From assembly GCF_024464185.1 (NCBI RefSeq), contig NZ_JANHAU010000002.1, forward strand, positions 682,001-746,000: DNA of 64,000 bases, read 5' to 3'. The notes under the pieces were generated by a model that did no database searches, was not told where the DNA came from, and saw nothing but the letters and a program-made list of their open reading frames with translations. Positions 29,164-47,323 of the stretch are shown here, one piece after another. The translations under genes were made by a program, and so were the position numbers. Within the stretch, counting starts at the first letter, position 1. Each line of letters starts with the position of its first letter. Source of the DNA: Haloarchaeobius salinus. Lineage in GTDB: Archaea; Halobacteriota; Halobacteria; Halobacteriales; Natrialbaceae.

Positions 29164-30726
29164 ATGGCTGAAAACGACCAGGCAACGCTACCTGGAACGG
29201 GACCAGATCTACTCACACTCCCCACTCTCGAAAAACATCTATGGGCGGCCGCGGACAAGCTCCGAGGAAGCATCGACTCGGCCGACTACAAGAACTACAT
29301 TTTCGGTTTGCTGTTCCTCAAGCGGGCCAACGACCGCTTCGAGGAGGAGACCGAAGAGGTCGCTGAGGACCTCGGGATTCCAGTCGAGACTGCCAAGGAC
29401 GACCGGGACCTCCACGAGGAGTTCTGGATCCCTGAACGCGCTCGCTGGAACCACATCAAGGCTCAGGAGACCGACGTTGGCGCGGCGCTGAACAAGGCAC
29501 TCGCGGCGGTCGAAGACGAGAACGATCCCATCGCTGACCGCGTGCTCACTACGGTCGATTTCAACGACAAAGAACGGTTGCCCGACTCACTACTCTCCGA
29601 TCTCGTCTCGCACTTCTCGAAGCACCGCTATCGGAACGCGGATCTCGAAGACCCTGACATCTTCGGACGAGCCTACGAATACCTCATCCGCGAGTTCGCC
29701 GACGACGCCGGCAAGAAGGGCGGCGAGTTCTATACGCCGCGCGAGGTCGTCCGGCTGATCGTTAAGTGCGTGAATCCGGAGCCGGGCCATCGTGTGTATG
29801 ACCCTTGCTGTGGCTCCGGTGGGATGCTCATCTACTCCGCCGAGCACATCCGTGAGTCGGGCGGCGACATGACCGACATCTCGCTGTACGGCCAGGAGAA
29901 GAACCTGAACACGTGGGCGATCGGCCAGATGAACGTCTTGCTCCACGAGCTGTACGACGCGAAGATTGAGAAGGGCGATACCATCACCGAGCCCAAGCGC
30001 GTCACGAAACACGACGAACTAGAGGTGTTCGACCGGGTCATCGCGAACCCGATGTGGAACCAGAAGGAATGGAGCAAGGACTGGGTGGAGGACAACGAGC
30101 CGTACAACCGCTTCCCGTACGGCCTCCCGCCGTCGAACCGCGGCGATTGGGCGTGGGTTCAGCTCATGATCGCTTCGCTCAACGAGACCGGAAAGGCGGG
30201 TGTCGTCATGGACAACGGCGTGCTGTTCCGCTCGCGCTCGGAAAAGAAAATCCGCAAACCGGTGCTGGAGAACGACCTCGTTGAGGCTGTTATTGCCTTA
30301 CCGGAGAATCTGTTCTACAATACAGGCTCGCCGGGTTGTATCCTCATCCTGAATAAGGACAAGCCCGAAGAACTCGAGGACAAGGTCCACTTCATCTACG
30401 CCGAGGACCAGACCCTTCGGGAGTCAGAAGTCCAGGTATTTGAAGAACTCTCAAATCAGAATCAGCTCACCGACGAGGGCGTAGATTATATTGCAGAGAC
30501 GTTCCTGGCAGGCCGTGAGGAGGGCCACCACAGTCGGCTGGTCGATATGGAAGAGATTGAGGAAAACGACTGGAATCTGAATGTCCCGCGGTACATCGAT
30601 ACTACCGAACCTGATGAACCGATCGACGTGAGCGAGAAGCTTCGGGAATTGGACAAACTGGCTGAGGAGCGTCGAAAGACCGACGAGGAGCTTCAGCAGT
30701 ACATGGAGGAGTTAGAGTACCAATGA
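29164..30726 (+). CDS. hsdM: Type I restriction-modification system methyltransferase subunit HsdM
   Basis: This N6-adenine methyltransferase has 520 residues. The HsdM N-terminal helical domain (LEKHLWAAADKLRGSIDSAD, FGLLFLKRANDRFEE) precedes the SAM-binding motif I in YDPCCGSGGMLI and the catalytic motif IV in VIANPMWNQKEW. The latter is NPMW rather than the commoner NPPF/NPPY, a variant I believe occurs in this HsdM clade. GGEFYTPREVVRL is typical. Together with HsdS it methylates the target. The gene overlaps hsdS by four bases (ATGA) and heads the operon hsdM-hsdS-hsdR-metallopeptidase. Confidence 0.95.
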   Translation: MAENDQATLPGTGPDLLTLPTLEKHLWAAADKLRGSIDSADYKNYIFGLLFLKRANDRFEEETEEVAEDLGIPVETAKDDRDLHEEFWIPERARWNHIKAQETDVGAALNKALAAVEDENDPIADRVLTTVDFNDKERLPDSLLSDLVSHFSKHRYRNADLEDPDIFGRAYEYLIREFADDAGKKGGEFYTPREVVRLIVKCVNPEPGHRVYDPCCGSGGMLIYSAEHIRESGGDMTDISLYGQEKNLNTWAIGQMNVLLHELYDAKIEKGDTITEPKRVTKHDELEVFDRVIANPMWNQKEWSKDWVEDNEPYNRFPYGLPPSNRGDWAWVQLMIASLNETGKAGVVMDNGVLFRSRSEKKIRKPVLENDLVEAVIALPENLFYNTGSPGCILILNKDKPEELEDKVHFIYAEDQTLRESEVQVFEELSNQNQLTDEGVDYIAETFLAGREEGHHSRLVDMEEIEENDWNLNVPRYIDTTEPDEPIDVSEKLRELDKLAEERRKTDEELQQYMEELEYQ

Positions 30727-32003
30727 ATTGGATTCCAGACCAACAAGTCAGAGAAGATTATCAAAAGGTGTCTTGGGGACCAAATGAGGAATACATTCCG
30801 TCTGACTGGGATATAAAATCTATAAATGAAATTTCTGAGGATGTTATTTACCCGCAGCGAGACAAACCTGAGGATCTCAATGGTGAGATTCCATGGATTC
30901 GAATTGAGGATCTTGAGGGAAAATATATTGCTGAATCAGACTCAGGGAAGGGAGTAACTCAAGAAACTATCCGGGATATGAATCTAAGCGTCTTCCCCCG
31001 GGGAACACTAATGTGTTCCTGTAGCGGGAATATGGGGGTTTGTGCAATTACTGAACGCGAACTAATATCCAATCAGACTTTTGCAGGAATCGTCCCTTCT
31101 GAGACGATTGAAACGGAATACCTGTATTATGCTCTCGGGAATCGCAGTGAAGATTTACAACGAATGTCCACTGGTACGACCATCGCTTACTTGTCAAGCG
31201 ACAAGTTGAACAAGTTCTCAATTCCGTACCCACCACTCCGTGAACAGCGTAGGATCGCTGAAATCCTCTCGACGGTCGACGAGCAAATTCAGCAAACAAT
31301 CGAGATCATCAAGAAGACAAAAGAACTGAAGAAGGGACTGATGCAGGATCTCCTGATTGAAGGCTTTTCTAAGAATTCTACCCAAGAGGTTCAGATCGGT
31401 CCCCGATCACTACAGATTCCGGAGCATTGGGAGATGAAATCCTGTGGCCAGTTATTCAACGCAGTGAATGGACGTGCTTTCAAGACAGAAGAGTGGGCCG
31501 AAGAAGGGACTCAAATAATTAGGATTCAAGACCTAAGGCCCGATGCAAAAGCAGAAACCAATTACGCAGATTTCGATGTTGACAAAAAATACCACGTTAC
31601 GGAAGGCGACTTACTCTTCTGTTGGGCAGGAAATATTAAAACCTCACTTGGCGCATATATTTGGTCGGGCGAGAGAGCTTATCTTAATCAGCATATTTAT
31701 AACCTTCGTGCTAAATCAGAACTCGACAAAAGATTCTTTGCATATTCTCTAAACCAGCACCTAAAGTTGTTAAAAACAATGGTTGGAGGGTCAGCAGGCC
31801 AAGTACATATAACAAAAACAGACTTCGAGGCATTTCGGCTTCCGGTTCCACCTATTGAGGAACAAAAGAAGATCGGTGATATTATCGAAAAATCGAAAAT
31901 GAAGACGCAAGAAGAAAAAGAGCGGAAGTCAAAGCTAGAAGATCTTAAGAGTGGACTGATGCAAGACCTACTAACTGGAAAGATTCGTACGAGATTTAAC
32001 TAG
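30723..32003 (+). CDS. hsdS: Type I restriction-modification specificity subunit HsdS
   Basis: The protein has 426 residues with two target-recognition domains (about residues 10-165 and 225-370), each followed by a conserved spacer helix: PLREQRRIAEILSTVDEQI...LKKGLMQDLL and PPIEEQKKIGDIIEKSKMK...LKSGLMQDLL. It recognises a bipartite DNA site. The recognition domains are strongly AT-rich with AT-ending codons, while the central helix is close to chromosome composition. This mosaic is expected when recognition domains are swapped from foreign sources. The start overlaps hsdM (ATGA), and a 2-nt gap separates it from hsdR. Confidence 0.94.
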   Translation: MNWIPDQQVREDYQKVSWGPNEEYIPSDWDIKSINEISEDVIYPQRDKPEDLNGEIPWIRIEDLEGKYIAESDSGKGVTQETIRDMNLSVFPRGTLMCSCSGNMGVCAITERELISNQTFAGIVPSETIETEYLYYALGNRSEDLQRMSTGTTIAYLSSDKLNKFSIPYPPLREQRRIAEILSTVDEQIQQTIEIIKKTKELKKGLMQDLLIEGFSKNSTQEVQIGPRSLQIPEHWEMKSCGQLFNAVNGRAFKTEEWAEEGTQIIRIQDLRPDAKAETNYADFDVDKKYHVTEGDLLFCWAGNIKTSLGAYIWSGERAYLNQHIYNLRAKSELDKRFFAYSLNQHLKLLKTMVGGSAGQVHITKTDFEAFRLPVPPIEEQKKIGDIIEKSKMKTQEEKERKSKLEDLKSGLMQDLLTGKIRTRFN

Positions 32004-32005
32004 GT

Positions 32006-34969
32006 ATGCCCAACGAGTACGCTGAGTCGGAACGACCCGCCCTTGACACCCTCCAGCGAATCGGCTGGGAGGTCGTCGACCAACAACAGACAACCTGGGT
32101 TGACCCCCGCGAGACGGAGTCCTCGGCCGTGCTCGAACCTCGACTTCGCGATGCTGTCAACCGTCTGAATCCGTGGCTTGACGAGAACAATCTGAACAAG
32201 GCCGTCCGGGAGATCCAGCAGGTCGCTGGTACGAGTACGATGGACGAGAACGAGCAGATTCACGAGAAGCTTGTTCGCCACATCTCTGTCGAGCAGGACC
32301 GGGGCCACGGCAAGCAACATCAGACGGTCCAGTACATCGATTACGAGAACCCCGGGAAAAACGACTTCTTTGCGCTCAACCAGTTCCGGGTTGAGGGCCC
32401 TGTCGAAATTGTCAAGCCAGACATCGTGCTGTTCGTCAACGGGATTCCGCTCGGGGTCATCGAGTGCAAGAGCCCGCTGATTCCTGAACCGAAGTCCGAG
32501 GCGCTCGATCAGATCACGCGCTATCAGAACGAGCGCGACGGTGAGTCGGAGGGCGCCGAGGAACTGTTCCGGTACAATCAGTTCTCGGTCGCCACCTGGA
32601 TGGAGGGCGCGGTGATGGGGACGTACCGGACGCCGAAGGACCAGTATAAGCCCTGGCGTGACGCCTACCCGCTGGAGGACGACGAGCTCATCGAGCTGTT
32701 CGATCTCGACGGCTACCTCCCGGACCAGTATCGCATGCTCTATGCGCTGTTCGAGCCCGAGCGCCTGCTCGACCAGCTCCGGCACTACACGGTGTTCGAG
32801 GAGCGCCAGAGCGGGACGATCAAGATGGTCGCTCGCTACCAGCAGTACCGGGCGGTCCGGAAGGCGCTCGAACGGATCGACAAGCGCGGGACGCGCGAGG
32901 CCAACGGGGGCGTCGTCTGGCACACCCAGGGGTCGGGGAAGTCGCTCACGATGCTGTTCCTCGCGCTGAAGCTGCGCCGCCTCAAGGACGACCCGACGTT
33001 GGTGCTCGTCACCGACCGGCGGGCGCTCGATGACCAGATTCACGCGACGTTCCAGCGCTGCGGGTTCCCGAACCCAAAGAAAGCCCAGAGCGTCGAAGAT
33101 CTCCGGGAGCGCCTGAGCTACGACGCCGGCGAGACGATTACGACGCTCATCCACAAGTTCCAGACGACCGACGACGAGGACGACGAGTTCCCGGTGCTCT
33201 CGCATAACGAGAATATCTACGTGATGGCTGACGAGGCCCACCGCACGCAGGACAAGCAATTCGCGAACAACATGCGGACGGCGCTCCCGAACGCGTTCTA
33301 CGTCGGGTTCACGGGAACGCCGATCGAGAAGGACGAGCGTAACACCCGCCGTACGTTCGGGAACTACATTGACACGTACACGATCGACCAGTCGCTGGAG
33401 GACGGTGCGACCGTTCCGATTCTATATCAGGGCCGACTCGCCGACATCCATCTTGAGGGTGAGACGCTCGACCGGCTGTTCGACCGCATCTTCTCGGACA
33501 AGAGTCCCGAGGAGAAGGCCGAGATTCAGAAGCGCTACGCGCGCTCGCAAGACCTCGCTGAGGCGCAAGCGCGCATCGATCGGGTGGCCTTGGACATCAT
33601 CGAGCACTACGAGAACGAGATCGCGCGCCCGTTCAAGGGGATGGTCGTGACCACTAGCAAGGAGGCAGCGATTCGGTACAAGGAGACGCTGGACGGCCTC
33701 AACGGGCCGGAGTCTCGTGTGGTCGTCTCCGAGGGTCACAACGACCCCGAGCACATCAAGCGGTGGACGCCGTCGGACTCGGAGAAGAGCCAGTACAAGG
33801 AGTCGTTCGTCGACCCGAACGGCGAGGTCGAACTGCTGATTGTCTGTGATATGCTCCTGACGGGGTTCGACGCGCCGATTGCGCAGGTGATGTACCTCGA
33901 CAAGCCGCTCCGCGAGCACGGCCTCCTGCAGGCGATCGCTCGGGTCAACCGGCCGTTCGAGGAGAAGAACCACGGGCTCATCATCGACTACTATGGCGTC
34001 TCCGACGAGCTCAAGGAGGCGCTCTCGATGTTCAGCGCGAAGGACGTCGAGCGGGCGATGGTGCCGCTGAAGGACAAGCAGCCCGAGCTTGAAGCCGCCC
34101 ACAGCAAGGCCATCTCGTTCTTCGACGACCTCGATGAAGTAGAGAAGTGTGTTCAGTCGCTCGAGCCGGAGGACCGCCGGATCGAGTTCAAGAACGCGTT
34201 CAAGCGGTTCTCGCAGCTGATGGACATCGTTCTGCCGGACCCGATGGCGAATCCGTATCGCGAGGACTTGGAGCAGCTCAGCACCATCTTCGGGAAGGCC
34301 AAGGAGCGCTACCGTGACGACACGATGAACTTGGAGGGCGCTGGGGCGAAGGTCCGAAAGCTCATCCAGGACCACATCAGCTCGCAGGGCATCGAGATCA
34401 TCAATGAGGAGCCGGTCTCCATCATGGACGAGGTCGAGTTCGATGCGAGACTTCAAGACCTAGAGAGCGACGAAGCCCGGGCGAGTGAGATGCAGAATGC
34501 CATCAAGCACGAGATCAACGTCCGGTTCGACGAGGATCCGGTCCAGTACGGGTCGCTCAGGGAGCGGCTCGAGGAGCTCATCGAGAAGTACCGTGAGGGG
34601 CGCCACAGCGAGCGCGAAACAATCGAGGAGCTGCGCTCGCTGATGGACGAGATTCGCTCGCGCGACAAGGCGGCCCGCAGCAAGGGGCTGCGTGACGAGA
34701 CGGACCTGTCGTTCTATCACGCGGTCGAAGACGTGCTGGACGAACACGACACCGAGCAGGAGGACCTCGTCCAGCTCACCGGCAACCTTGTGGGGACTGT
34801 CGAGCAGTTCGTGACGATGGTCGAGTGGAAGGACCGCTCGCACCTCCAGAACAAGATGCGCAAGAAGGTGACCGGCGAGCTGTATCGCTCTGACATCGAC
34901 CTGTCGGCCGACGAACGCCGGGAGCTGACCAACCGCGTGATCGAGCTGGCGCGCGCGCACTACCAATGA
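32006..34969 (+). CDS. hsdR: Type I restriction endonuclease subunit HsdR
   Basis: The protein has 987 residues. The N-terminal PD-(D/E)xK nuclease is KPDIVLFVNGIPLGVIECKS (about residues 137-156). The helicase/translocase core has Walker A HTQGSGKSLTMLFLA (about residue 308), VLVTDRRALDDQ, the DEAH-type box MADEAHRTQ (about 408), VGFTGTPIE, and the later LLTGFDAPIAQVMYLDKPL and QAIARVNRPF motifs. A helical C-terminus for HsdM/S docking follows. It translocates on unmodified DNA and cuts at a distance. All key residues are present, so the system looks active. It overlaps the next gene by four bases. Confidence 0.95.
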   Translation: MPNEYAESERPALDTLQRIGWEVVDQQQTTWVDPRETESSAVLEPRLRDAVNRLNPWLDENNLNKAVREIQQVAGTSTMDENEQIHEKLVRHISVEQDRGHGKQHQTVQYIDYENPGKNDFFALNQFRVEGPVEIVKPDIVLFVNGIPLGVIECKSPLIPEPKSEALDQITRYQNERDGESEGAEELFRYNQFSVATWMEGAVMGTYRTPKDQYKPWRDAYPLEDDELIELFDLDGYLPDQYRMLYALFEPERLLDQLRHYTVFEERQSGTIKMVARYQQYRAVRKALERIDKRGTREANGGVVWHTQGSGKSLTMLFLALKLRRLKDDPTLVLVTDRRALDDQIHATFQRCGFPNPKKAQSVEDLRERLSYDAGETITTLIHKFQTTDDEDDEFPVLSHNENIYVMADEAHRTQDKQFANNMRTALPNAFYVGFTGTPIEKDERNTRRTFGNYIDTYTIDQSLEDGATVPILYQGRLADIHLEGETLDRLFDRIFSDKSPEEKAEIQKRYARSQDLAEAQARIDRVALDIIEHYENEIARPFKGMVVTTSKEAAIRYKETLDGLNGPESRVVVSEGHNDPEHIKRWTPSDSEKSQYKESFVDPNGEVELLIVCDMLLTGFDAPIAQVMYLDKPLREHGLLQAIARVNRPFEEKNHGLIIDYYGVSDELKEALSMFSAKDVERAMVPLKDKQPELEAAHSKAISFFDDLDEVEKCVQSLEPEDRRIEFKNAFKRFSQLMDIVLPDPMANPYREDLEQLSTIFGKAKERYRDDTMNLEGAGAKVRKLIQDHISSQGIEIINEEPVSIMDEVEFDARLQDLESDEARASEMQNAIKHEINVRFDEDPVQYGSLRERLEELIEKYREGRHSERETIEELRSLMDEIRSRDKAARSKGLRDETDLSFYHAVEDVLDEHDTEQEDLVQLTGNLVGTVEQFVTMVEWKDRSHLQNKMRKKVTGELYRSDIDLSADERRELTNRVIELARAHYQ

Positions 34970-35803: not shown

Positions 35804-36544
35804 ATGGGCAAACAAAACCATGCCCGCGGTAGTGCAGCTAGTAACCAGTGTACGGAGCAGCGACGGACCGTAGCCGGACGGCTCGAAAAGGCCGGGCTCC
35901 ACAGTGAGCGCTTTATCGACGTCACGGACGGACGAAAGCAGTCCTACGACCACACCCGACTGTCCCCCGATGCAGTCGCGGGCAACTACGGGGTCTACTG
36001 CGGCCGTGGGCTGCTGGGGTTCGACATCGACGATTACAACGGGCATGCCGATACCCGTGCGCTGGAAGGTCTGCCGGCGACCTTCACGGTGCGCACCCCG
36101 CACGGCGGCGAGCACCACTACTTCAAGAGCGTCCGCGGAGCCTCAGCCACGATCAGGGCGGCCACGGGGGGCGCCCGGAACGTCTCGCTGAACTGGGGCG
36201 AGATCTATGGCGGCGGGAAATATCTCGTTGGCCCGGGCTCCGAGATCACTGACTGCAACAAAACCGGGTGTACAGACACAGAGAACCACGAGTCGTACGC
36301 GATACTCGACGACCGGCCGATTGCAGAGATAGGGCCAGAATCGGTGCGGAGCGTGCTGTCCGCTCAGGCGGGCCATGCCGGGGATGTACCCCAATCAGCG
36401 CTCGCCACATACGGCGTTCAGGACGGCGAACGCATCCCGAGGACCAATAATCGTACCCGAAGCCGGCAGTCTGGCGCCAGTGCGTCGTCCGAGGAACAAC
36501 GCGCGGTTGACAGCGAACAAGCGGGGCTGGATTCGTTCCGATGA
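35804..36544 (+). CDS. PrimPol-like (bifunctional primase/polymerase N-terminal domain) protein
   Basis: The protein has 246 residues. The archaeo-eukaryotic primase prim-pol domain is visible: GNYGVYCGRGLLGFDIDDYN with catalytic acidic residues (Asp 74, Asp 76), FTVRTPHGGEHHYFKSV with the conserved His, and WGEIYGGGKYLVGPGSEI. A short cysteine segment (CNKTGCTD) and a polar tail follow. On plasmids and viruses such proteins prime or replicate DNA together with a D5-type helicase, which is encoded 0.9 kb downstream (37403). The C-terminal 60 residues are low complexity. Confidence 0.83.
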   Translation: MGKQNHARGSAASNQCTEQRRTVAGRLEKAGLHSERFIDVTDGRKQSYDHTRLSPDAVAGNYGVYCGRGLLGFDIDDYNGHADTRALEGLPATFTVRTPHGGEHHYFKSVRGASATIRAATGGARNVSLNWGEIYGGGKYLVGPGSEITDCNKTGCTDTENHESYAILDDRPIAEIGPESVRSVLSAQAGHAGDVPQSALATYGVQDGERIPRTNNRTRSRQSGASASSEEQRAVDSEQAGLDSFR

Positions 36545-36890
36545 GATCCACACCGATCTCAACGGCGACTGGCGGCCGTCCCTCGGTGCGAGGTGCTAGC
36601 CCACCGCTCGGGACGGAGCAGATGAGTGCGGGCAGGATGGAAACGCTGAGTCGGTCCCTCTCCGAGCGGCGACTCGTGTCAGCACGAGCATGGAGCGCGA
36701 AGCTGCCTCGCTCGGCTCGCGCTGGCGCCCGCGCTTCGATGCGTGGGCTCGGCCCATTCGTGCCTGAGACGCGAGCAGAGCGCAAGAGAGCGCCAGCGAG
36801 AAGCGGTCATCCCTCACGAGCCGCCGTGCTTTGTGTGCTTGTCAGTCAGTGGGGGCCCCTCAGAACAGCGTCCAAGAGTAACAAACGGCG
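36545..36890. other. Non-coding gap in the replication cluster, possible origin region
   Basis: The open frame running through here is Arg/Ser/Ala-rich and does not look like a halophile protein. The stretch contains an inverted repeat GCTGGCGC (36721-36728) / GCGCCAGC (36790-36797). Lying between primase and helicase genes it could hold a replication origin, but I see no clear ORB element or repeat iterons. Confidence 0.35.
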
Positions 36891-37070
36891 ATGCACGACA
36901 AACCGATACGGAACGACAGGACACAGATATACTGTCGCACGGAAACCAAGGAGGAGGTCCGCGCTCTCAAGCGCGGCGGCGAGACGTTCGACGAGGTGCT
37001 CCGCCGCATGGCAGAGCAGTGCGATCCCGAAGCCGGTCGTGAGCTGGAGGGCAGCAACGATGGCGTCTGA
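36891..37070 (+). CDS. Small antitoxin-like protein (VapB/UPF0330-like), copy 1
   Basis: This 59-residue protein starts MHDKPIRNDRTQIYCRTETK and has the core VRALKRGGETFDEVLRRMAEQ, similar to the GESYDDVIRRL core of VapB-type archaeal antitoxins. It is homologous to the small protein encoded on the other strand at 38846-39013 (17 of 29 core residues identical). No PIN-domain toxin is adjacent. It overlaps the next small ORF by 11 nt and belongs to a chain of overlapping small genes leading to the D5-type helicase, so it may be a transcription factor of the replicon rather than an antitoxin. Confidence 0.65.
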   Translation: MHDKPIRNDRTQIYCRTETKEEVRALKRGGETFDEVLRRMAEQCDPEAGRELEGSNDGV

Positions 37071-37227
37071 GCCCAGTGCCCACCACCGGGCGCTCGCCGC
37101 GTTCGTGACGGAACACCGGGACGAACTCGAAGCATACGCGGGCAGCGAGAAGGAGAACGCGAGGCTGGCCGAAGCGCTCCTCGCCTGGGAACGCGAGGAC
37201 GGGAGCCGACAGGGGGGACAGAGATGA
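37060..37227 (+). CDS. Small hypothetical protein of the replicon operon
   Basis: This protein of 55 residues has an acidic helical sequence (HHRALAAFVTEHRDELEAYA and RLAEALLAWERED). It overlaps the preceding antitoxin-like ORF by 11 nt and the following zinc-finger ORF by 4 nt (ATGA), which argues for a real, translationally coupled gene. I recognise no family. Confidence 0.55.
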   Translation: MASEPSAHHRALAAFVTEHRDELEAYAGSEKENARLAEALLAWEREDGSRQGGQR

Positions 37228-37406
37228 GGCCACTCCGTCCGGCCGAGTTCCCTCTCGATCGCTGCGTCACGGGCCCGCACGCAATCCGAGATGGAAATGG
37301 CGACTACAGGCTCGTCTACCGATGCGAACTGTGCGACACGGCTTCCACAGACCCCGCGCTCCGCAGAGGATGCTGGAACTGTGACGGCGGGGTAGGCTGG
37401 CGATGA
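37224..37406 (+). CDS. Small zinc-finger protein of the replicon operon
   Basis: This 60-residue protein has two CxxC pairs (CELC and CWNC) separated by 15-20 residues, a likely zinc ribbon. It overlaps both neighbours by four bases (ATGA at each end), directly preceding the D5-type helicase. It may assist DNA binding by the replication proteins; no function is known. Confidence 0.6.
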   Translation: MRPLRPAEFPLDRCVTGPHAIRDGNGDYRLVYRCELCDTASTDPALRRGCWNCDGGVGWR

Positions 37407-38836
37407 CAGACGAGACATCTGCCGAGGACGACCACGACGAGCCAGAGCGCAATGCCCTCCGGATTCAGTGGGAAGCGGAGCGGGAATCGCTCAGTAACAA
37501 CGCACAGCGAGCCTACACAGGGTGGGAGCTGATTCGAGAGCAGGAGGACCTGCTGGCGGTGCGCGAGACCAGCGAGTTGTATGCCTGCCACGACGGCGTC
37601 TGGCACGACGACGGCGAGCAGGTGCTCCGCGAAAAGGCGAGAGAGATGATGACCAGCGACTATTCAACCGCGCTCTTCAGGGAGCTGAAGGGCCAGGTTC
37701 ACGCGACCAACGCCGTGACGGTGAGCGACCTCGGGGTCGCCGACGGGACTGTGGCTGTCGGGAACGGGCTGCTGGATCTCCGAGAGCGCACTCTCCGAGA
37801 TCTCCGGCCTGACGACTACGCTCTCCACCGGCTGCCTGTCAAGTACGACCCCGAGGCCGGCTGTCCGTGCTGGCGGGCGTTCCTTGAACAGGTAGTCAGC
37901 AGTGAGTCGGGCCGCAACCAACTCCAAGAGTTCGTGGGCTACTGCCTCGCCGGGGGCGAACCCTGGCTCAAGAAGGCGCTGATGATCTTCGGCCCGACCG
38001 ACGCTGGCAAGACCGTGTTCCTCGAAGTTGTCGAGCGACTGTTCGGCAACGGCGCGAACGCCGCGCAGACGCCGCAGTATCTCGCAAGCGAGCGGTGGGG
38101 TGTTCACCAGCTCGCGGACAAGCCCGTAAACATCCGGCACGACGTCGACGCGGAGCGTCTCCAGCGCCTCGGCGTCCTGAAGGAGATCATCGACGGCAAC
38201 ACAGTCACCGCCGAGCAGAAGGGAAGAGACCCCTACTCGTTCAAACCGGAGACGAGGCATCTGTTCGCTGCCAACCGGGCTCCGAAGCGACCCGTTGACG
38301 ACGAGGCCTTCTGGAACCGATGGCTCACAATCGTGTTCCCCGAGAGCGTGCCTCCAGAAAAGCAGACACCGAAGACAGAGCTCCTGGACGGGCTGATGGA
38401 AGAGCTCCCGGGTGTCCTGAACTGGGCGCTGGACGGGCTCGACAGGCTACGCGAGAACGATGGGTTCACCGATGCGCCGAGCCCCGACGAGGTAAGGCGG
38501 CGGTGGGAGCAGTTCGGCAGTCCCGTCGAGCGGTTCAAGTATACCCGGCTGGTGAAAGACCCGGACGTGGTGGAGCCCAAGCGGCGAGTTCAGGAGGAGT
38601 TCACGATGTTCTGCCTCGATAACGGCTACGAAGACCTCTCCGATCAGGAACTAACAAGAGAACTAACGAAGGACCCCGCGATCGGACAGAGCCAGCGGCG
38701 CGTGGACGGCGACCGGCCGCGGGTCTACACCGGCGTTTGTCTCGCCGGCGACGAGCGCGGGGGCAGTGCCGACAGTGACGACGGCGACGGCGAGGAACCG
38801 GATTCTGAGTCGGGCGGCCTGTCCGGCTTTGTCTGA
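37403..38836 (+). CDS. D5-type phage/plasmid primase-associated helicase (SF3)
   Basis: The protein has 477 residues. The D5 N-terminal region (LADGTVAVGNGLLDLRERTL type, here VADGTVAVGNGLLDLRERTL) precedes an SF3/AAA+ ATPase with Walker A FGPTDAGKTVFLEVV (residues 197-204), an acidic strand after NIRHDVDAERL, FAANRAPKRPVDDEAFWNRW (sensor and Arg-finger region) and a winged-helix-like C-terminus (FTMFCLDNGYEDLSDQELTR). It acts as the replicative helicase of the element with the PrimPol-like protein. The ATGA overlap with the small zinc-finger gene shows coupling. The tail is acidic. Confidence 0.88.
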   Translation: MTDETSAEDDHDEPERNALRIQWEAERESLSNNAQRAYTGWELIREQEDLLAVRETSELYACHDGVWHDDGEQVLREKAREMMTSDYSTALFRELKGQVHATNAVTVSDLGVADGTVAVGNGLLDLRERTLRDLRPDDYALHRLPVKYDPEAGCPCWRAFLEQVVSSESGRNQLQEFVGYCLAGGEPWLKKALMIFGPTDAGKTVFLEVVERLFGNGANAAQTPQYLASERWGVHQLADKPVNIRHDVDAERLQRLGVLKEIIDGNTVTAEQKGRDPYSFKPETRHLFAANRAPKRPVDDEAFWNRWLTIVFPESVPPEKQTPKTELLDGLMEELPGVLNWALDGLDRLRENDGFTDAPSPDEVRRRWEQFGSPVERFKYTRLVKDPDVVEPKRRVQEEFTMFCLDNGYEDLSDQELTRELTKDPAIGQSQRRVDGDRPRVYTGVCLAGDERGGSADSDDGDGEEPDSESGGLSGFV

Positions 38837-41328: not shown

Positions 41329-41398
41329 TCCTGACAAAAAATAAATACGATGGAAACGCGTTGCTTACGATCTCGGCAACTCGTGCACGAGAATGGCT

Positions 41399-42733
41399 CT
41401 ACTGCGATTTCTCGGGGATCCAGTGGGTCGGGAGCGAATCCGACCCAAGGTTCACCGCAGAAATGTGCGTGACTTGGCCATCCAGCGGGGAGGGCTCATC
41501 CACGTCGATATCGTCCGTCAGCAGGAGCCCGTGGATCTCCACGCCTCGCTCGGAAAGGTAGCCGTGGCCGTCCTTCTGGGCGAACTCGATGTACTTCAGT
41601 AGCTCTTCCAGTCCGTGCGTGAACGTCTGCTGGCTCTCGCTGTACTTGATCTCGCCGAGCACGACCGCCGTTGGAAGCTCCCTGTCGCTGGTGTCGTAAA
41701 CCTCGATGACGAGATCCGGACGCCCGTGGAACAGCGACGGTTCCGTGCTGTTCCCGAGGAACGCCTCGGTCAACCGCTGGTGTCGGCGTTGTGCGTGCCT
41801 GACCCGTTCAGCGTAGTCCGCCTCCACGCCGTCGAGTTCGGACAGCGGGACGTGGAACGAGAGGCTACCGCTCCTGTCGTGGTATATATCGACTGTTCGC
41901 TGGTCATCCTCCAATACGGCGAGCTGCTCGGCCCCAGGTTCGATTGGCTGGAGCCGGAGCGCCTCCGTGCGGAGCCCACGGAGCAGCCGAAACACGCAGA
42001 AGAGCTCGAACAGCCGCGGTATCCGTTCGGGCACCACGAGAGTGTCCGTCAACAGGTCGGAGATGTCCGGGTCGTCGTAGGCCCCGGATAGCAGGCGGCG
42101 GTAGCGGTCGTACAGTTTGAACGCTTTCGTATACAGCGTCTGTCGCGACCGTCGGGCGGTGTTGAGCATCCGGTGGGTGACCTGGATGTCAGCGCCGTCT
42201 CGGATGCGGTTCAGATGGACGTTCCTGGCGTACACCCGGTCGAGCATCGCGACGCGGTCGTCCGGCCACGCGTCCGTCCGCCAGTCGTAGTCGATCGCGG
42301 CGATGTCCTCGCTCACCGTCGAGTGGATCGTCCAGAGGAGCTTCTTCAGAACCAGGTTCTCGTCGATATTGTATTCGGTGTACGGCGTCTTGCAGGCGAA
42401 CCGGGTCCGATCGCCGGACTGGTCGGCGTACCGCAGCCGCGTCGTCGCCGGCCAATCGATCCCGCCCCGGACCTCTCCGCGCGTGACCTCGCGTTCACGC
42501 TGGTTGGCGGTCTTGACGCGCCGGAGGCGGCCCTGAAGCTCCGTGACAAACTCGACGACCTCGTCGCTAAGGCAGAAGTGGATCCGCTTGAGCCGGTCGA
42601 GGTTCTCGATGTTCAGATCGGTGATGTCGAGGTGTCGAGTCAGTGCGCGCTGGTTGACCGTCCCGTTCCGGAGGTACGTGACCAACTCCTCCTGAACTCC
42701 GTCCACCAGCGCACTGCGGCCAAGCTTACTCAT
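41399..42733 (-). CDS. McrC-like PD-(D/E)xK nuclease partner
   Basis: The protein has 444 residues. The middle (RGGIDWPATTRLRYADQSGD and YTEYNIDENLVLKKLLWTI) matches the GRIDW...TPEN-type domain of McrC/DUF2357-like restriction proteins. The C-terminal nuclease has GRPDLVIEVYD and VVLGEIKYSESQ, giving the D-(E)xK catalytic residues (about Asp 338, Glu 361, Lys 363). The start at 42733 (MSKLGRSAL) overlaps the end of the mcrB-like gene by 8 nt. By analogy with McrBC it cuts DNA when the GTPase/AAA partner binds modified sites and translocates. Confidence 0.83.
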   Translation of the reverse strand: MSKLGRSALVDGVQEELVTYLRNGTVNQRALTRHLDITDLNIENLDRLKRIHFCLSDEVVEFVTELQGRLRRVKTANQREREVTRGEVRGGIDWPATTRLRYADQSGDRTRFACKTPYTEYNIDENLVLKKLLWTIHSTVSEDIAAIDYDWRTDAWPDDRVAMLDRVYARNVHLNRIRDGADIQVTHRMLNTARRSRQTLYTKAFKLYDRYRRLLSGAYDDPDISDLLTDTLVVPERIPRLFELFCVFRLLRGLRTEALRLQPIEPGAEQLAVLEDDQRTVDIYHDRSGSLSFHVPLSELDGVEADYAERVRHAQRRHQRLTEAFLGNSTEPSLFHGRPDLVIEVYDTSDRELPTAVVLGEIKYSESQQTFTHGLEELLKYIEFAQKDGHGYLSERGVEIHGLLLTDDIDVDEPSPLDGQVTHISAVNLGSDSLPTHWIPEKSQ

Positions 42734-45700
42734 CGGAGCGTGGCGGGAGGTCGAAGAAGTCCTCGGCTTTCCGTTCCAGCCGGTCGCCGTCGAGCGTGAG
42801 GGCGACCGCGCCCGCCTCGGTCCGTACGTCGGTCGCACTCAGGGAGCTGATGAGGCTTCGTTGCTCCTGCGGTGCCATCCCTTCGAGTTGGGGGAACACC
42901 AGCGCGACGACTGCGTCGGTGAGGGCGGGGCCAGGGTCGTCGGTCACTTCAGGGCCCGCTGCAGCGAGGTACCCAAGGATGTCTCGTACGATGGAGGGGC
43001 CGATGGTCTGGTGTTGGTTCACCCTGTGCCAGACGACGGCGACCTGTTCGTACGTCGCCTCCAGAATGTCTCGGAGAGAGTCGTCGGCGTCGAGCCACGC
43101 CTCCGCGTAGTTGTCTTCGCCATCCGGGTCCAGCAGGGAGGTACGCACTCGACCGTCATCCTCGAGCGGTGGAACCCCGACGTGGATGAAGTTGAACCGG
43201 CGCATGAACGCGTACGAGAGCTCGTAGAGCGATGTCTTATCATAGGTGTTCATCGTGGCCAGGAGTCGCCAAGCGGGCGTAACCGGGAAGATATCCTCGT
43301 TCGTGACGACCGACTTCAGCCGCTCGCGTGCAACGCCCTCCTCGAGCGACGCGATTTCGACCGGTTCCTCCCGCTCGTAGGGGAGTTGGACCGAGTCCCC
43401 TGACAGAACAGAGAACAACTGGCCGAACGCCTTGTCTATGTCCGAGCGGTTGATCTCGTCGATGACCAGCCACTCGTTTCTGATCTCGCCGTCCCTGCGG
43501 AAGCAGTCCAGGAAGATCCGCGGTTGGAAGACCAGTTCGTCCCCCTCAGCGGTTCGGTTGGGAACGTAACCGCCGATTGTATCGAAGGTCGTCCACTCGG
43601 CTGTCGCCGTCGTGAACTGGTAGTCGTCCACGACATCGCCCTGTGACTCGGCGACCTGCTCGCAGACGTGTTTGGCCAGCTTCGTCTTCCCCGTTCCGGG
43701 GGGACCGGTGAAGATGATGTGCTTCCCGGAGTTGAGCGAAGCCTGGATCTGCCGCCGGAGTTCCGCCTCCTCTTCGTAATAGAGGCTATCGGGTAGGCTA
43801 ACCGATACCGACAGGGGACTGAGTCGGTCCTGCAGGGCCTCGATCCGCTCCTCGATTGGAGCACCCGAGCAGATCGCCTCGAACGCGGTGGCGGACAGCG
43901 GGAATATCGCCCCCCTGCCATTCGTTCGCACGAGTGCCGTGTCCGCCAACTCCGGCATCGACGTCACGGTACCCCAGTCGACAGGGTCGACTGGCCCGTC
44001 ATACTGAATCGTGATTCCATTGACCGGTTCGTCTCGGTACTCGGGTTGGTTCGAGTGAAGCCCCTCTACAACGGTCCCTTCGCCGACCACAGCGCTCATC
44101 GGCGACGATGCATAGAATAGGACCCGGTCGCCTGGGCCAGCCGCCTCGAAGGCCTCCTGTTGATTTCGGGTGCGGCCCGACTCATTGGTGGCGGTGTAGA
44201 ACACCTCGTCGCCTTCGTCCATCGACTGGACGTCCCACTGCTCCGGTTTTGCGGTTACCCAGTAGTGGGCGGGTCCACCCGCCTCAGCGAGCCGGAGGAG
44301 TGTTTCATACGCTGCTCTGGAGAGCTCGGTCACGACATAAGGGTTGTTCGACTCGACCACGGGGTTTCCTTCGAGCTGCGGGAGCTGCTCGATATCATCC
44401 CACCCGACCCCTTCGAGCGAGTAGTCCCATTCAATCGTGATCCCTTGGGCTGGACTGTCGTACGATTCGACCTCCTCCTCGTGGAGGCCTTCTGTGACGT
44501 GTGCCTTCCCGACGATCGCTCGTCTTGGAGCGTTCCGGTAGATGAGAACCTGATCGCCAGGCTGGGCTCGCTCGTACGCCTCGATATTGCGCCGTTCCGT
44601 TCCATCGGCTTGTGTGGTCTTGTAGAACGCCTCTCCACCTTCCTGATACCACCCTGTGCTGGCGGAGTTGATCCAGAAGTATTGGGTCGAGCCTTCTTTT
44701 CCGTTCGTGGATCCTGTTGATTGCGCGTCCTCGGCTTGTAGATCGAGGATGAGCTTGTACAGTTTGCGTGCGGGTTCAGATGTCTCAGCCTTGATGCTCT
44801 GCTCATCGGCCTTATCTATGACGTTAAATAGTTGGTCGATTTCCAGCCGAATCGGCACCTCGACTCCGTGATCTGCCTCGTCGGTTGCATGCCCAACGAC
44901 CTGTTCGTACGTGTTCATGAAGTCGTTGAACGCCGCGAGACCGTCGGCGTAGGATGTCGGCTTTTGATATCCAAAGAAGGAGAGCCCCTCCTTCGTCGCG
45001 GCGTTGATGATTGGATACTCGTCGATATGTAGTGACCCGAATAGTTCCCAGACTGTGGTTTGACCACCGAGACGACTTGTATCAGTCCAGGACTCGTCGA
45101 ATTCGTCAGCGTCACGGATTTCCTTGATGAGCTCTGCGAGATCTTCAATCGACCCATCCCATTGTTTTAATCGCCCTGCTGCGTTCCCGCGTTGGACTGC
45201 TGAGTGCATGCGATCCCACATCGCTTTGAATCTCTCCTCGGATGGGTTCGCAATGAATTCGTCCGCACGAGAGGTGATGTCTCTTGTGCGGTCGTGATTC
45301 GCGAAATCGAATTCTTCGCCTGCCGATTGTGTACGAGCAACTGTTCGCCATTGCTCGAGTACTCTGTGCCGTCCTGGGAGAAGAGACGAGTCCCCATTTC
45401 GGTCTACGTTCGTAGCGAGTAGTGCTGTTCCTTCGGGGGGAACCTCAACTCCGTCGCGCTCGCTTAGCACTGTGAGTAGGTCAACGAAGCCAGACGGCGT
45501 GATGTTGAGTTCTTCAATCGTCAGGTGGGGTTGGGTGTAGTACACGCTCTCCTGCCCGCCCTGTCGAAACCGATCGGGTAGCGATCTCTTTTTGATCCCG
45601 GTGTCGCTGGACGTCGTCGCAAGATGATCGACCATCCTCCAGTAAGCGTGGCTCTGAGCGCTGGGTAGACCGTCCTCCTGATATATGAAATCACCCACAC

Positions 45701-46565
45701 GAGCCACTGCCTGGATCGACGCGTCCCCATGAATAACAACAAAATCGCCGAGTTCCATGCTTGGAACCTCACCAATAACGAACTGGCGAATCTGCCGCCA
45801 GGGGGTGACTGATGAGCCTCCTCCATGTTGGTTTGCTATCCGCTGCTTTACTTCTTCCTCATCAGTAAAATCAACTTCGTCAGGATGTCCGATATCCCAA
45901 CCAATGGTGATCTTTGGCCCCGGTTCGTCGTTCCACTCGTCCCAGAGGCTGCCGCTCTTACCGGCTCGAATGTTCCAAAAGGTAACGTCACGGAACGGGT
46001 CTGTCAGATAATCGTGCGCCTCCAAGTACTCCCTGATGTCACCAGAGGCATCCGACAGCACTGCAGCGAGTGAGTCCGGAACTACGGTTAAATAACCGCC
46101 CTGAGCGAGACTAAGCCGCTTCGTGTAGAACAGGTTTTTGTTATTCTCCCTGATATCTGATAGTTTATCTCTGTACTGCGGATCATCGAACAAATCGGCG
46201 CTCAGATCGAGGGGCGTATCGAAACGGGTGAATTCCCGAAGATGACGCAAATAGCCGCCCTGTTCCTGCTGTTGCGGTTCCCAGCGCTCCAAAATATAAT
46301 CCGGGAACTCATGATCGGTAATCAGCTCGGAGTCAACGATGGAGGCTCCCGCTATTGTGTAGTCTTCTTGTAATAAATGAAGGACGATATCGCCCGCGTC
46401 TGCTTCTCTGAGTGGCCAGTAGAAGTCCTGGCCTCCCGCCGCCTCCTGTGGGGAAACAATGGCACTGCCGAGACTATACGCTGATGAACCTGGCTTCTTC
46501 CATTCCCCATGAATCGCCGTCTTTTCAACCCAAATATCGGGCTGTGAATTCTCGGAATCGGTCAC
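42726..46565 (-). CDS. McrB-like AAA+ protein with multiple PUA/EVE-like reader domains
   Basis: This 1279-residue protein ends in an McrB-type AAA+ motor: Walker A FTGPPGTGKTKLAKHV (residue 954), Walker B NEWLVIDEINRSD and the McrB-family MNTYD (residue 1105, MNTxD signature). Upstream lie two tandem EVE-like domains (about 628-770, starting TQYFWINSASTGWYQ with AQPGDQVLIYR; and about 766-905, starting AHYWVTAKPEQWDV with AGPGDRVLFYA). Further upstream are a PUA-like segment with MELGDFVVIHGDASIQAVAR (about 200-330) and a possible N-terminal one with READAGDIVLHLLQEDYTIA (residues 1-105). EVE domains read modified cytosines. The 5' half is AT-rich. It is coupled to the nuclease gene. Confidence 0.85.
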   Translation of the reverse strand: MTDSENSQPDIWVEKTAIHGEWKKPGSSAYSLGSAIVSPQEAAGGQDFYWPLREADAGDIVLHLLQEDYTIAGASIVDSELITDHEFPDYILERWEPQQQEQGGYLRHLREFTRFDTPLDLSADLFDDPQYRDKLSDIRENNKNLFYTKRLSLAQGGYLTVVPDSLAAVLSDASGDIREYLEAHDYLTDPFRDVTFWNIRAGKSGSLWDEWNDEPGPKITIGWDIGHPDEVDFTDEEEVKQRIANQHGGGSSVTPWRQIRQFVIGEVPSMELGDFVVIHGDASIQAVARVGDFIYQEDGLPSAQSHAYWRMVDHLATTSSDTGIKKRSLPDRFRQGGQESVYYTQPHLTIEELNITPSGFVDLLTVLSERDGVEVPPEGTALLATNVDRNGDSSLLPGRHRVLEQWRTVARTQSAGEEFDFANHDRTRDITSRADEFIANPSEERFKAMWDRMHSAVQRGNAAGRLKQWDGSIEDLAELIKEIRDADEFDESWTDTSRLGGQTTVWELFGSLHIDEYPIINAATKEGLSFFGYQKPTSYADGLAAFNDFMNTYEQVVGHATDEADHGVEVPIRLEIDQLFNVIDKADEQSIKAETSEPARKLYKLILDLQAEDAQSTGSTNGKEGSTQYFWINSASTGWYQEGGEAFYKTTQADGTERRNIEAYERAQPGDQVLIYRNAPRRAIVGKAHVTEGLHEEEVESYDSPAQGITIEWDYSLEGVGWDDIEQLPQLEGNPVVESNNPYVVTELSRAAYETLLRLAEAGGPAHYWVTAKPEQWDVQSMDEGDEVFYTATNESGRTRNQQEAFEAAGPGDRVLFYASSPMSAVVGEGTVVEGLHSNQPEYRDEPVNGITIQYDGPVDPVDWGTVTSMPELADTALVRTNGRGAIFPLSATAFEAICSGAPIEERIEALQDRLSPLSVSVSLPDSLYYEEEAELRRQIQASLNSGKHIIFTGPPGTGKTKLAKHVCEQVAESQGDVVDDYQFTTATAEWTTFDTIGGYVPNRTAEGDELVFQPRIFLDCFRRDGEIRNEWLVIDEINRSDIDKAFGQLFSVLSGDSVQLPYEREEPVEIASLEEGVARERLKSVVTNEDIFPVTPAWRLLATMNTYDKTSLYELSYAFMRRFNFIHVGVPPLEDDGRVRTSLLDPDGEDNYAEAWLDADDSLRDILEATYEQVAVVWHRVNQHQTIGPSIVRDILGYLAAAGPEVTDDPGPALTDAVVALVFPQLEGMAPQEQRSLISSLSATDVRTEAGAVALTLDGDRLERKAEDFFDLPPRSDE

Positions 46566-46717
46566 AATACCGCCACTGATTCAGGCCACGTGTATATATA
46601 TTGGTGAGAAAATGACAACAAGATCTCGGCAACTCATGCAGATCTCGTATCACGGACCAGGTCACGACTAACATCTGGGTTAGATTCACAATGCGGCGGT
46701 CTGAACTTCCAATCAAC

Positions 46718-47005: not shown

Positions 47006-47073
47006 ATCTCTGAGTCACCACCCGACTCACCTAGCCTGCTCGCTGTCAAGATTTGAACTTCGGAAGGTCAGCC

Positions 47074-47088
47074 CCGCCCGGGACTATT
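47074..47088 (+). repeat. Partial att-like copy 1
   Basis: These 15 bp are identical to 28147-28161, including 3 nt beyond the tRNA 3' end, so this copy matches the left junction and its downstream flank. Confidence 0.7.
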
Positions 47089-47123
47089 CTCGCGCGAACG
47101 ACTCCGTGAGCGCGGAACTTCCC

Positions 47124-47135
47124 CGGCGGTTCGAA
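47124..47135 (+). repeat. Partial att-like copy 2
   Basis: These 12 bp (CGGCGGTTCGAA) are identical to the T arm at 28134-28145. Confidence 0.5.
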
Positions 47136-47163
47136 CCCAGAGGACGAGAGGATTCGAGTCCTC

Positions 47164-47186
47164 GCGGTTCGAATCCGCCCGGGACT
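47164..47186 (+). repeat. attR: 23-bp copy of the tRNA-Gln 3' end
   Basis: This is an exact repeat of 28136-28158 in the same orientation and the outermost copy of the tRNA end on the right. Confidence 0.85.
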
Positions 47187-47323
47187 GCTACAAGTTCTGT
47201 CGAAGTTTTCGGGCCACCTGGGCCGAGGTAATCCCACCTTACGGTCGCACGTTCCAGCGCTGCCGTCGGTCGCCGCGAGTAAGCGGTATATGAGTAAGTA
47301 ACCGACCGGCGAACTCCTGCGAC

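Follow-up and report, generated by a model that had tools for sequence, protein, structure and literature searches.

The mcrBC operon of Haloarchaeobius salinus analyzed here probably encodes a type IV McrBC system whose McrB carries four PUA-superfamily readers working with OR logic, namely a VcaM4I-like module (segment A), a module of the Mrr/NucS type (segment B) and two EVE subfamilies. The operon lies in a stretch of 64,000 nucleotides, hereafter the window, and its exact A-B-EVE-EVE combination was found once in 392 haloarchaeal genomes. An earlier annotation made from the letters alone, hereafter the sequence-only reading, had counted up to four reader domains in this protein, and a count of four is most likely correct; its proposal that such a protein could recognize several modifications or a bipartite modified site is plausible.

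Domain organization of McrB and McrC

The operon comprises the following features, given as positions in the window.

42726..46565, minus strand: mcrB, 1279 aa, GTG start, no internal stop
46041..46565, minus strand: segment A, aa 1-175, divergent VcaM4I-type EVE-like module by prediction; P39, W95, Q155 and Y158 kept
45441..45998, minus strand: segment B, aa 190-375, sensor module common to Mrr_cat and NucS_C nucleases, EVE/YTH-like by profile
44700..45413, minus strand: segment H, aa 385-622, conserved stretch separating reader modules of several McrBs (alignment, profile matches)
44280..44690, minus strand: EVE1, aa 626-762, Pfam PF01878; invariant W631, Y676 and W722
43866..44270, minus strand: EVE2, aa 766-900, Pfam match; 36% identical to EVE1, separate clade
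42729..43853, minus strand: McrB-type AAA+ GTPase, aa 905-1279; GPPGTGKT, LVIDEINR, MNTYDK (NxxD)
41399..42733, minus strand: mcrC, 444 aa from the ATG at M36 of a 479-aa ORF; overlaps the mcrB stop

A Pfam scan of the mcrB product matched EVE (PF01878) in two stretches (E 6.8e-14) and AAA_5 at residues 949-1124 (E 2.2e-13). Profiles built in this study delimited A (2-174), B (189-356), H (386-621), EVE1 (628-757), EVE2 (767-899) and the GTPase (929-1273), so that four separate modules and one segment, H, predicted to be helical, precede the GTPase. The gene coordinates in the sequence-only reading were exact, and its description of a giant protein with four segments agrees with the length of 1279 aa and with the four modules placed by profiles. 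Both motifs that it quoted were also located, GDIVLHLLQEDY at residues 58-69 in segment A and GDFVVIHGDAS at residues 273-283 in segment B. An AT-rich TATATATAT element, read by eye about 26-35 nt upstream of the GTG, has a position consistent with a leaderless archaeal transcript.

The Walker A motif GPPGTGKT, the motif LVIDEINR and the signature MNTYDK were fixed or nearly fixed in an alignment of 12 sequences; together with the AAA_5 match, this conservation across relatives confirms the identity of the protein as an McrB, an AAA+ GTPase with Walker A, Walker B and NxxD motifs. CoCoNuT McrBs are defined by an NxD signature motif (PMC11090510), and the CoCoNuT branch was ruled out because the signature here, MNTYD, is of the NxxD type.

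The adjacent mcrC gene lies beyond the interval covered by the sequence-only reading and belongs to the same system. Comparison with relatives made residue 36 of the longest ORF the likeliest start. The Pfam scan of mcrC returned no match, the McrBC family included; its relatives adjoin other McrBs (27-78% identity), and R338, P339, D340, E361 and K363 were invariant in 43 sequences, leaving the PD340...E361xK363 site of a PD-(D/E)xK nuclease intact. The operon therefore resembles E. coli McrBC in pairing an NxxD McrB GTPase with a PD-(D/E)xK McrC, but differs from it in the N-terminal part, where E. coli McrB has one reader (DUF3578/MrcB_N) and the present protein has a helical-looking segment and four modules, none of which belongs to that family.

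Segment A and the VcaM4I EVE domain

Segments A and B lie outside any curated domain, because neither gave a meaningful Pfam match; for segment A this held in all 18 family members. A query of residues 1-371 matched 24 of the 392 haloarchaeal genomes, most of which contained segment A, and a scan of genome contigs returned only five segment A relatives. AlphaFold modeling with six sequences gave segment A a pLDDT of about 62-94 per ten-residue block at residues 51-190 and low values at 19-50. When this model was compared with solved structures using Foldseek (matches 6yex, 2p5d, 2gbs, 5eim, 6n0s, 5j3e and 6p0f), the best match was the VcaM4I EVE-HNH protein (E 5e-6), followed by MJECL36, the Mmi1 YTH domain, the Staphylothermus McrB N-domain, Rpa0253 and THYN1 and, more weakly, the T. 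gammatolerans McrB N-domain. The Foldseek output came without aligned residues and the model spanned both A and B; the matches are assigned to A because B had a pLDDT below 50 over most of the model. On this model of moderate confidence, segment A would have the PUA/EVE fold of the EVE superfamily.

Profile comparisons connected segment A to VcaM4I through a second module family, F (A10), whose profile matched the VcaM4I EVE domain from end to end (E 1.8e-8) and which was related to segment A by hhalign (96.7%, E 3e-10). The direct hhalign comparison of segment A with EVE was weak (31%), and the segment A profile searched alone against the PDB gave nothing meaningful, VcaM4I not being reached at E <= 1. 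In VcaM4I, the base pocket consists of P24, W82 and Y130, with Y130 stacking, and Q128 serves as the wedge (PMC7897488). A joint alignment placed P24 at P39 (16/18 sequences), Q128 at Q155 (17/18) and Y130 at Y158, which is present in all 18; W82 has no exact partner, and the near-invariant W95 is close by. Structure prediction, which the sequence-only reading had proposed as a check, thus returned a PUA/EVE fold for segment A, and the alignment shows the pocket and wedge positions P39, Q155 and Y158 as conserved and W82 as unaligned; the combined evidence supports segment A as a divergent VcaM4I-type EVE domain with this predicted fold.

The A and F families resemble the 5mC/5hmC EVE domain of VcaM4I (PMC7897488) in fold and in pocket or wedge residues, whereas VcaM4I itself has an HNH nuclease and a single reader. 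The N-domains of the Thermococcus gammatolerans and Staphylothermus marinus McrBs (PDB 6p0f and 6n0s) are likewise archaeal McrB readers of the PUA superfamily and both match the segment A fold, but each of these proteins has a single reader.

Segment B and its nuclease-fused relatives

The family of segment B, which as a whole had no meaningful Pfam match, extends to a wider set (A5, A9) with the pattern W...GxxxxxW...IGW...GDxV...H, found in 43 of 392 haloarchaeal genomes. Some members make up the N-terminal half of proteins of 290-350 aa, the C-terminal half being Mrr_cat (E 3e-26 and 2e-26) or NucS_C (best E 4e-15), showing that the same domain is fused to restriction nucleases. One such protein is encoded in the same genome (L146:9978-10856, minus strand); it joins a B-type sensor to a NucS_C nuclease, gives a Pfam EVE match over the B region at E 8.6e-4, below the cut-off, and is a candidate modification-dependent restriction enzyme. 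Its gene is located about 3.4 kb upstream of that of a second McrB of this genome (877 aa, F and EVE).

By hhalign, B was related to the F family (75.5%, E 2e-5), and the comparison between the E family and B gave 15%. The B profile matched 2eve weakly in the PDB (E 0.42), and segment B searched alone gave nothing meaningful there. Two AlphaFold models of segment B had a pLDDT below 50, a low confidence attributable to their having been made without an alignment of relatives. The sequence-only reading had called both upstream segments PUA-like: for segment A this is now backed by AlphaFold and Foldseek, profiles and pocket positions, while for segment B the evidence is of family and profile kind and suggests a PUA/EVE/YTH-like fold.

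Since YTH domains, which read m6A RNA, were among the fold matches, and RNA targeting has been predicted for some McrB branches (PMC11090510), the array might read modified RNA or another ligand rather than modified DNA, a role already suggested for McrBs of the CoCoNuT type. We consider this very improbable: the signature is NxxD (MNTYD) and not the NxD of CoCoNuTs, the PD-ExK nuclease site of McrC is intact, and segment B is shared with DNA nucleases.

The tandem EVE domains

The two EVE domains proposed from the sequence are confirmed by the two Pfam EVE stretches and by a joint profile that matched the EVE structures 1zce (8e-5), 2gbs (5e-4) and 2eve. W631, Y676 and W722 (EVE1 numbering) are invariant aromatic positions in the EVE alignment, and EVE1 lacks the ARGxLF pattern that EVE2 retains. 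The two domains, separated by only 3 residues, fall into separate tree clades (support 0.997 and 0.994), and the same EVE1-EVE2 order occurs in L082-L084, which are in the tree, and in L080 and L081, together representing several genera. Separate clades and an order shared across several genera indicate that the two domains were paired long ago and have evolved separately, and rule out a recent duplication. Tandem EVE McrBs were counted by hand in 7 of the 392 genomes. EVE-McrB fusions described previously (Bell et al. 2020, PMC7641849) also place EVE N-terminal to the McrB GTPase, but differ from the present protein, in which two EVE subfamilies stand in tandem and are joined by A and B; a term search of the text of that paper did not find a multi-EVE McrB.

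The divergence of A and B, both without a Pfam match, and the loss of the ARGxLF pattern from EVE1 could mean that modified bases are still read by no more than one or two modules, the rest having decayed or serving as sequence-binding, structural or oligomerization parts. This interpretation appears doubtful, because conservation of the module families extends across many genera and includes Q155 and Y158 in segment A and the equivalents of W631 and Y676 in the EVE domains.

Module shuffling among haloarchaeal McrBs

The best genome matches to the mcrB product (59-81% identity) spanned only residues from about 610 onward, and none of the plasmid records matched over 80% of the protein. In two genomes (G385 and G328), the EVE1-EVE2-GTPase part was 81% identical and the N-terminus was an unrelated, helical-looking stretch of 240 aa. 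The N-terminus was DUF3578/MrcB_N-like by eye in L082, and consisted of a helical-looking segment and B in L083. Segment A or B occurs as the sole module of the A, B, E and F families in other McrBs (e.g., L071 and L065), as does F or, in proteins compared over their E domain, E elsewhere. In a sample biased by the selection of McrBs through similarity, 30 proteins had one module of these families, 16 had two, 9 had three and one, the present protein, had four. The statement of the sequence-only reading that most McrBs have one reader is therefore a poor description of this haloarchaeal subtype, in which many members have two or three modules. The F module adjoins EVE in many haloarchaeal McrBs.

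An McrB of 1285 aa (L085:4648-8505, minus strand) consists of MrcB_N (E 2e-30), B, H, F, EVE and GTPase. It also reaches four reader-type modules if MrcB_N is counted, so that four readers in one McrB are not unique in principle. B, EVE and H are common to this protein and the present one, but L085 has MrcB_N and F and lacks A and EVE1. The coordinates of L085 (G073) equal those of a match on the Halalkalicoccus sp. CGA53 plasmid NZ_CP144124. In IMG/VR, searches with the A, B, H and B-NucS alignments gave no relatives, and a search with the McrB GTPase found 11, most of them distant; a DNA pattern search had no match.

These arrangements raise a broader idea, which we advance tentatively and somewhat short of an even chance, that haloarchaeal McrBs are combinatorial readers with a constant EVE-EVE-GTPase-McrC core and swapped modified-base readers, the present protein being a member with four readers for several chemically distinct modifications of viral DNA, or for one set combination of these.

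Proposed mechanism and host methylation

By analogy with characterized McrBC and VcaM4I (PMC7897488; reviewed in PMC12707154 and PMC7641849), modified bases would be flipped into the reader pockets, the GTPase ring would translocate and McrC would cut. McrB is expected to form the GTP-driven ring and McrC to provide the PD-(D/E)xK nuclease. The modules probably act independently, each flipping out and binding a modified base, and the array may thereby allow more kinds of modified DNA to activate the motor and the nuclease. The fold of segment B, base binding by all four modules, the OR logic, the target bases and an anti-virus function are what we infer from these comparisons.

Alternatively, two or more modules might bind modified bases simultaneously at a composite site, which would raise specificity and leave the range unwidened. 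E. coli McrBC already requires two modified half-sites, and EVE1 and EVE2, only three residues apart, stay together in unchanged order in L080-L084. Such obligatory cooperation is nevertheless unlikely, since there are other McrBs in which A, B, E or F stands without a further member of these families, and A and B are swapped independently of the EVE pair. The occurrence of A or B as sole module is easier to reconcile with additive detection than with a bipartite site that is mandatory.

The methylases of the host bear on the bases that such additive readers could recognize. A C5-cytosine methylase was not found in the genome, which is compatible with readers of 5mC or 5hmC, as these would not be self-destructive. 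The genome does contain an N4/N6-type methylase gene and type I HsdM-type genes (N6-adenine methylase). The McrB of T. gammatolerans reads 6mA; here, the type I N6-adenine methylase would expose the host's own DNA to any general 6mA reader, and a broad reader of 6mA or 4mC is unlikely unless limited by context.

If the additive model is true, modification-dependent restriction can become multivalent through stacked readers, and haloarchaeal viruses would be expected to carry more kinds of base modification than have been documented. The natural module swaps could be used to ask how readers pass DNA to the McrB motor, and A and B, families lacking a Pfam entry, become recognizable reader candidates in tens of genomes.

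Genomic surroundings and possible mobility

The surroundings of the operon include the following features.

46622..46640, no strand: copy of a 19-bp direct repeat, 57 bp upstream of mcrB
41369..41387, no strand: copy of the 19-bp direct repeat, just downstream of mcrC
35804-38836: primase-polymerase (PF09250) and D5-type primase/helicase, mobile-element genes between the hsd and mcrBC operons
29164-34969: type I restriction-modification operon, with hsdM (29164-30726), hsdS (30723-32003) and hsdR (32006-34969)

The 19-bp repeats, which differ by one mismatch, flank the mcrBC operon, and a tyrosine integrase lies just outside. The chance expectation of such a repeat in the window was 0.09, and a search of the 3.85-Mb genome that tolerated two mismatches at most found no further copy; none of 16 related operons (0/16) had a comparable repeat pair. 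The mcrBC operon may be a mobile unit, with the repeats as a possible att pair of the cassette. Repeated stretches resembling tRNA 3' ends (GGTTCGAATCCGCCCGGGACT) occur at 47070-47190, where ARAGORN found no tRNA; they are possibly a remnant integration site. The type I hsd operon is complete and lies about 6.4 kb from mcrC, a proximity of hsd and mcrBC that recalls the immigration control region of E. coli.
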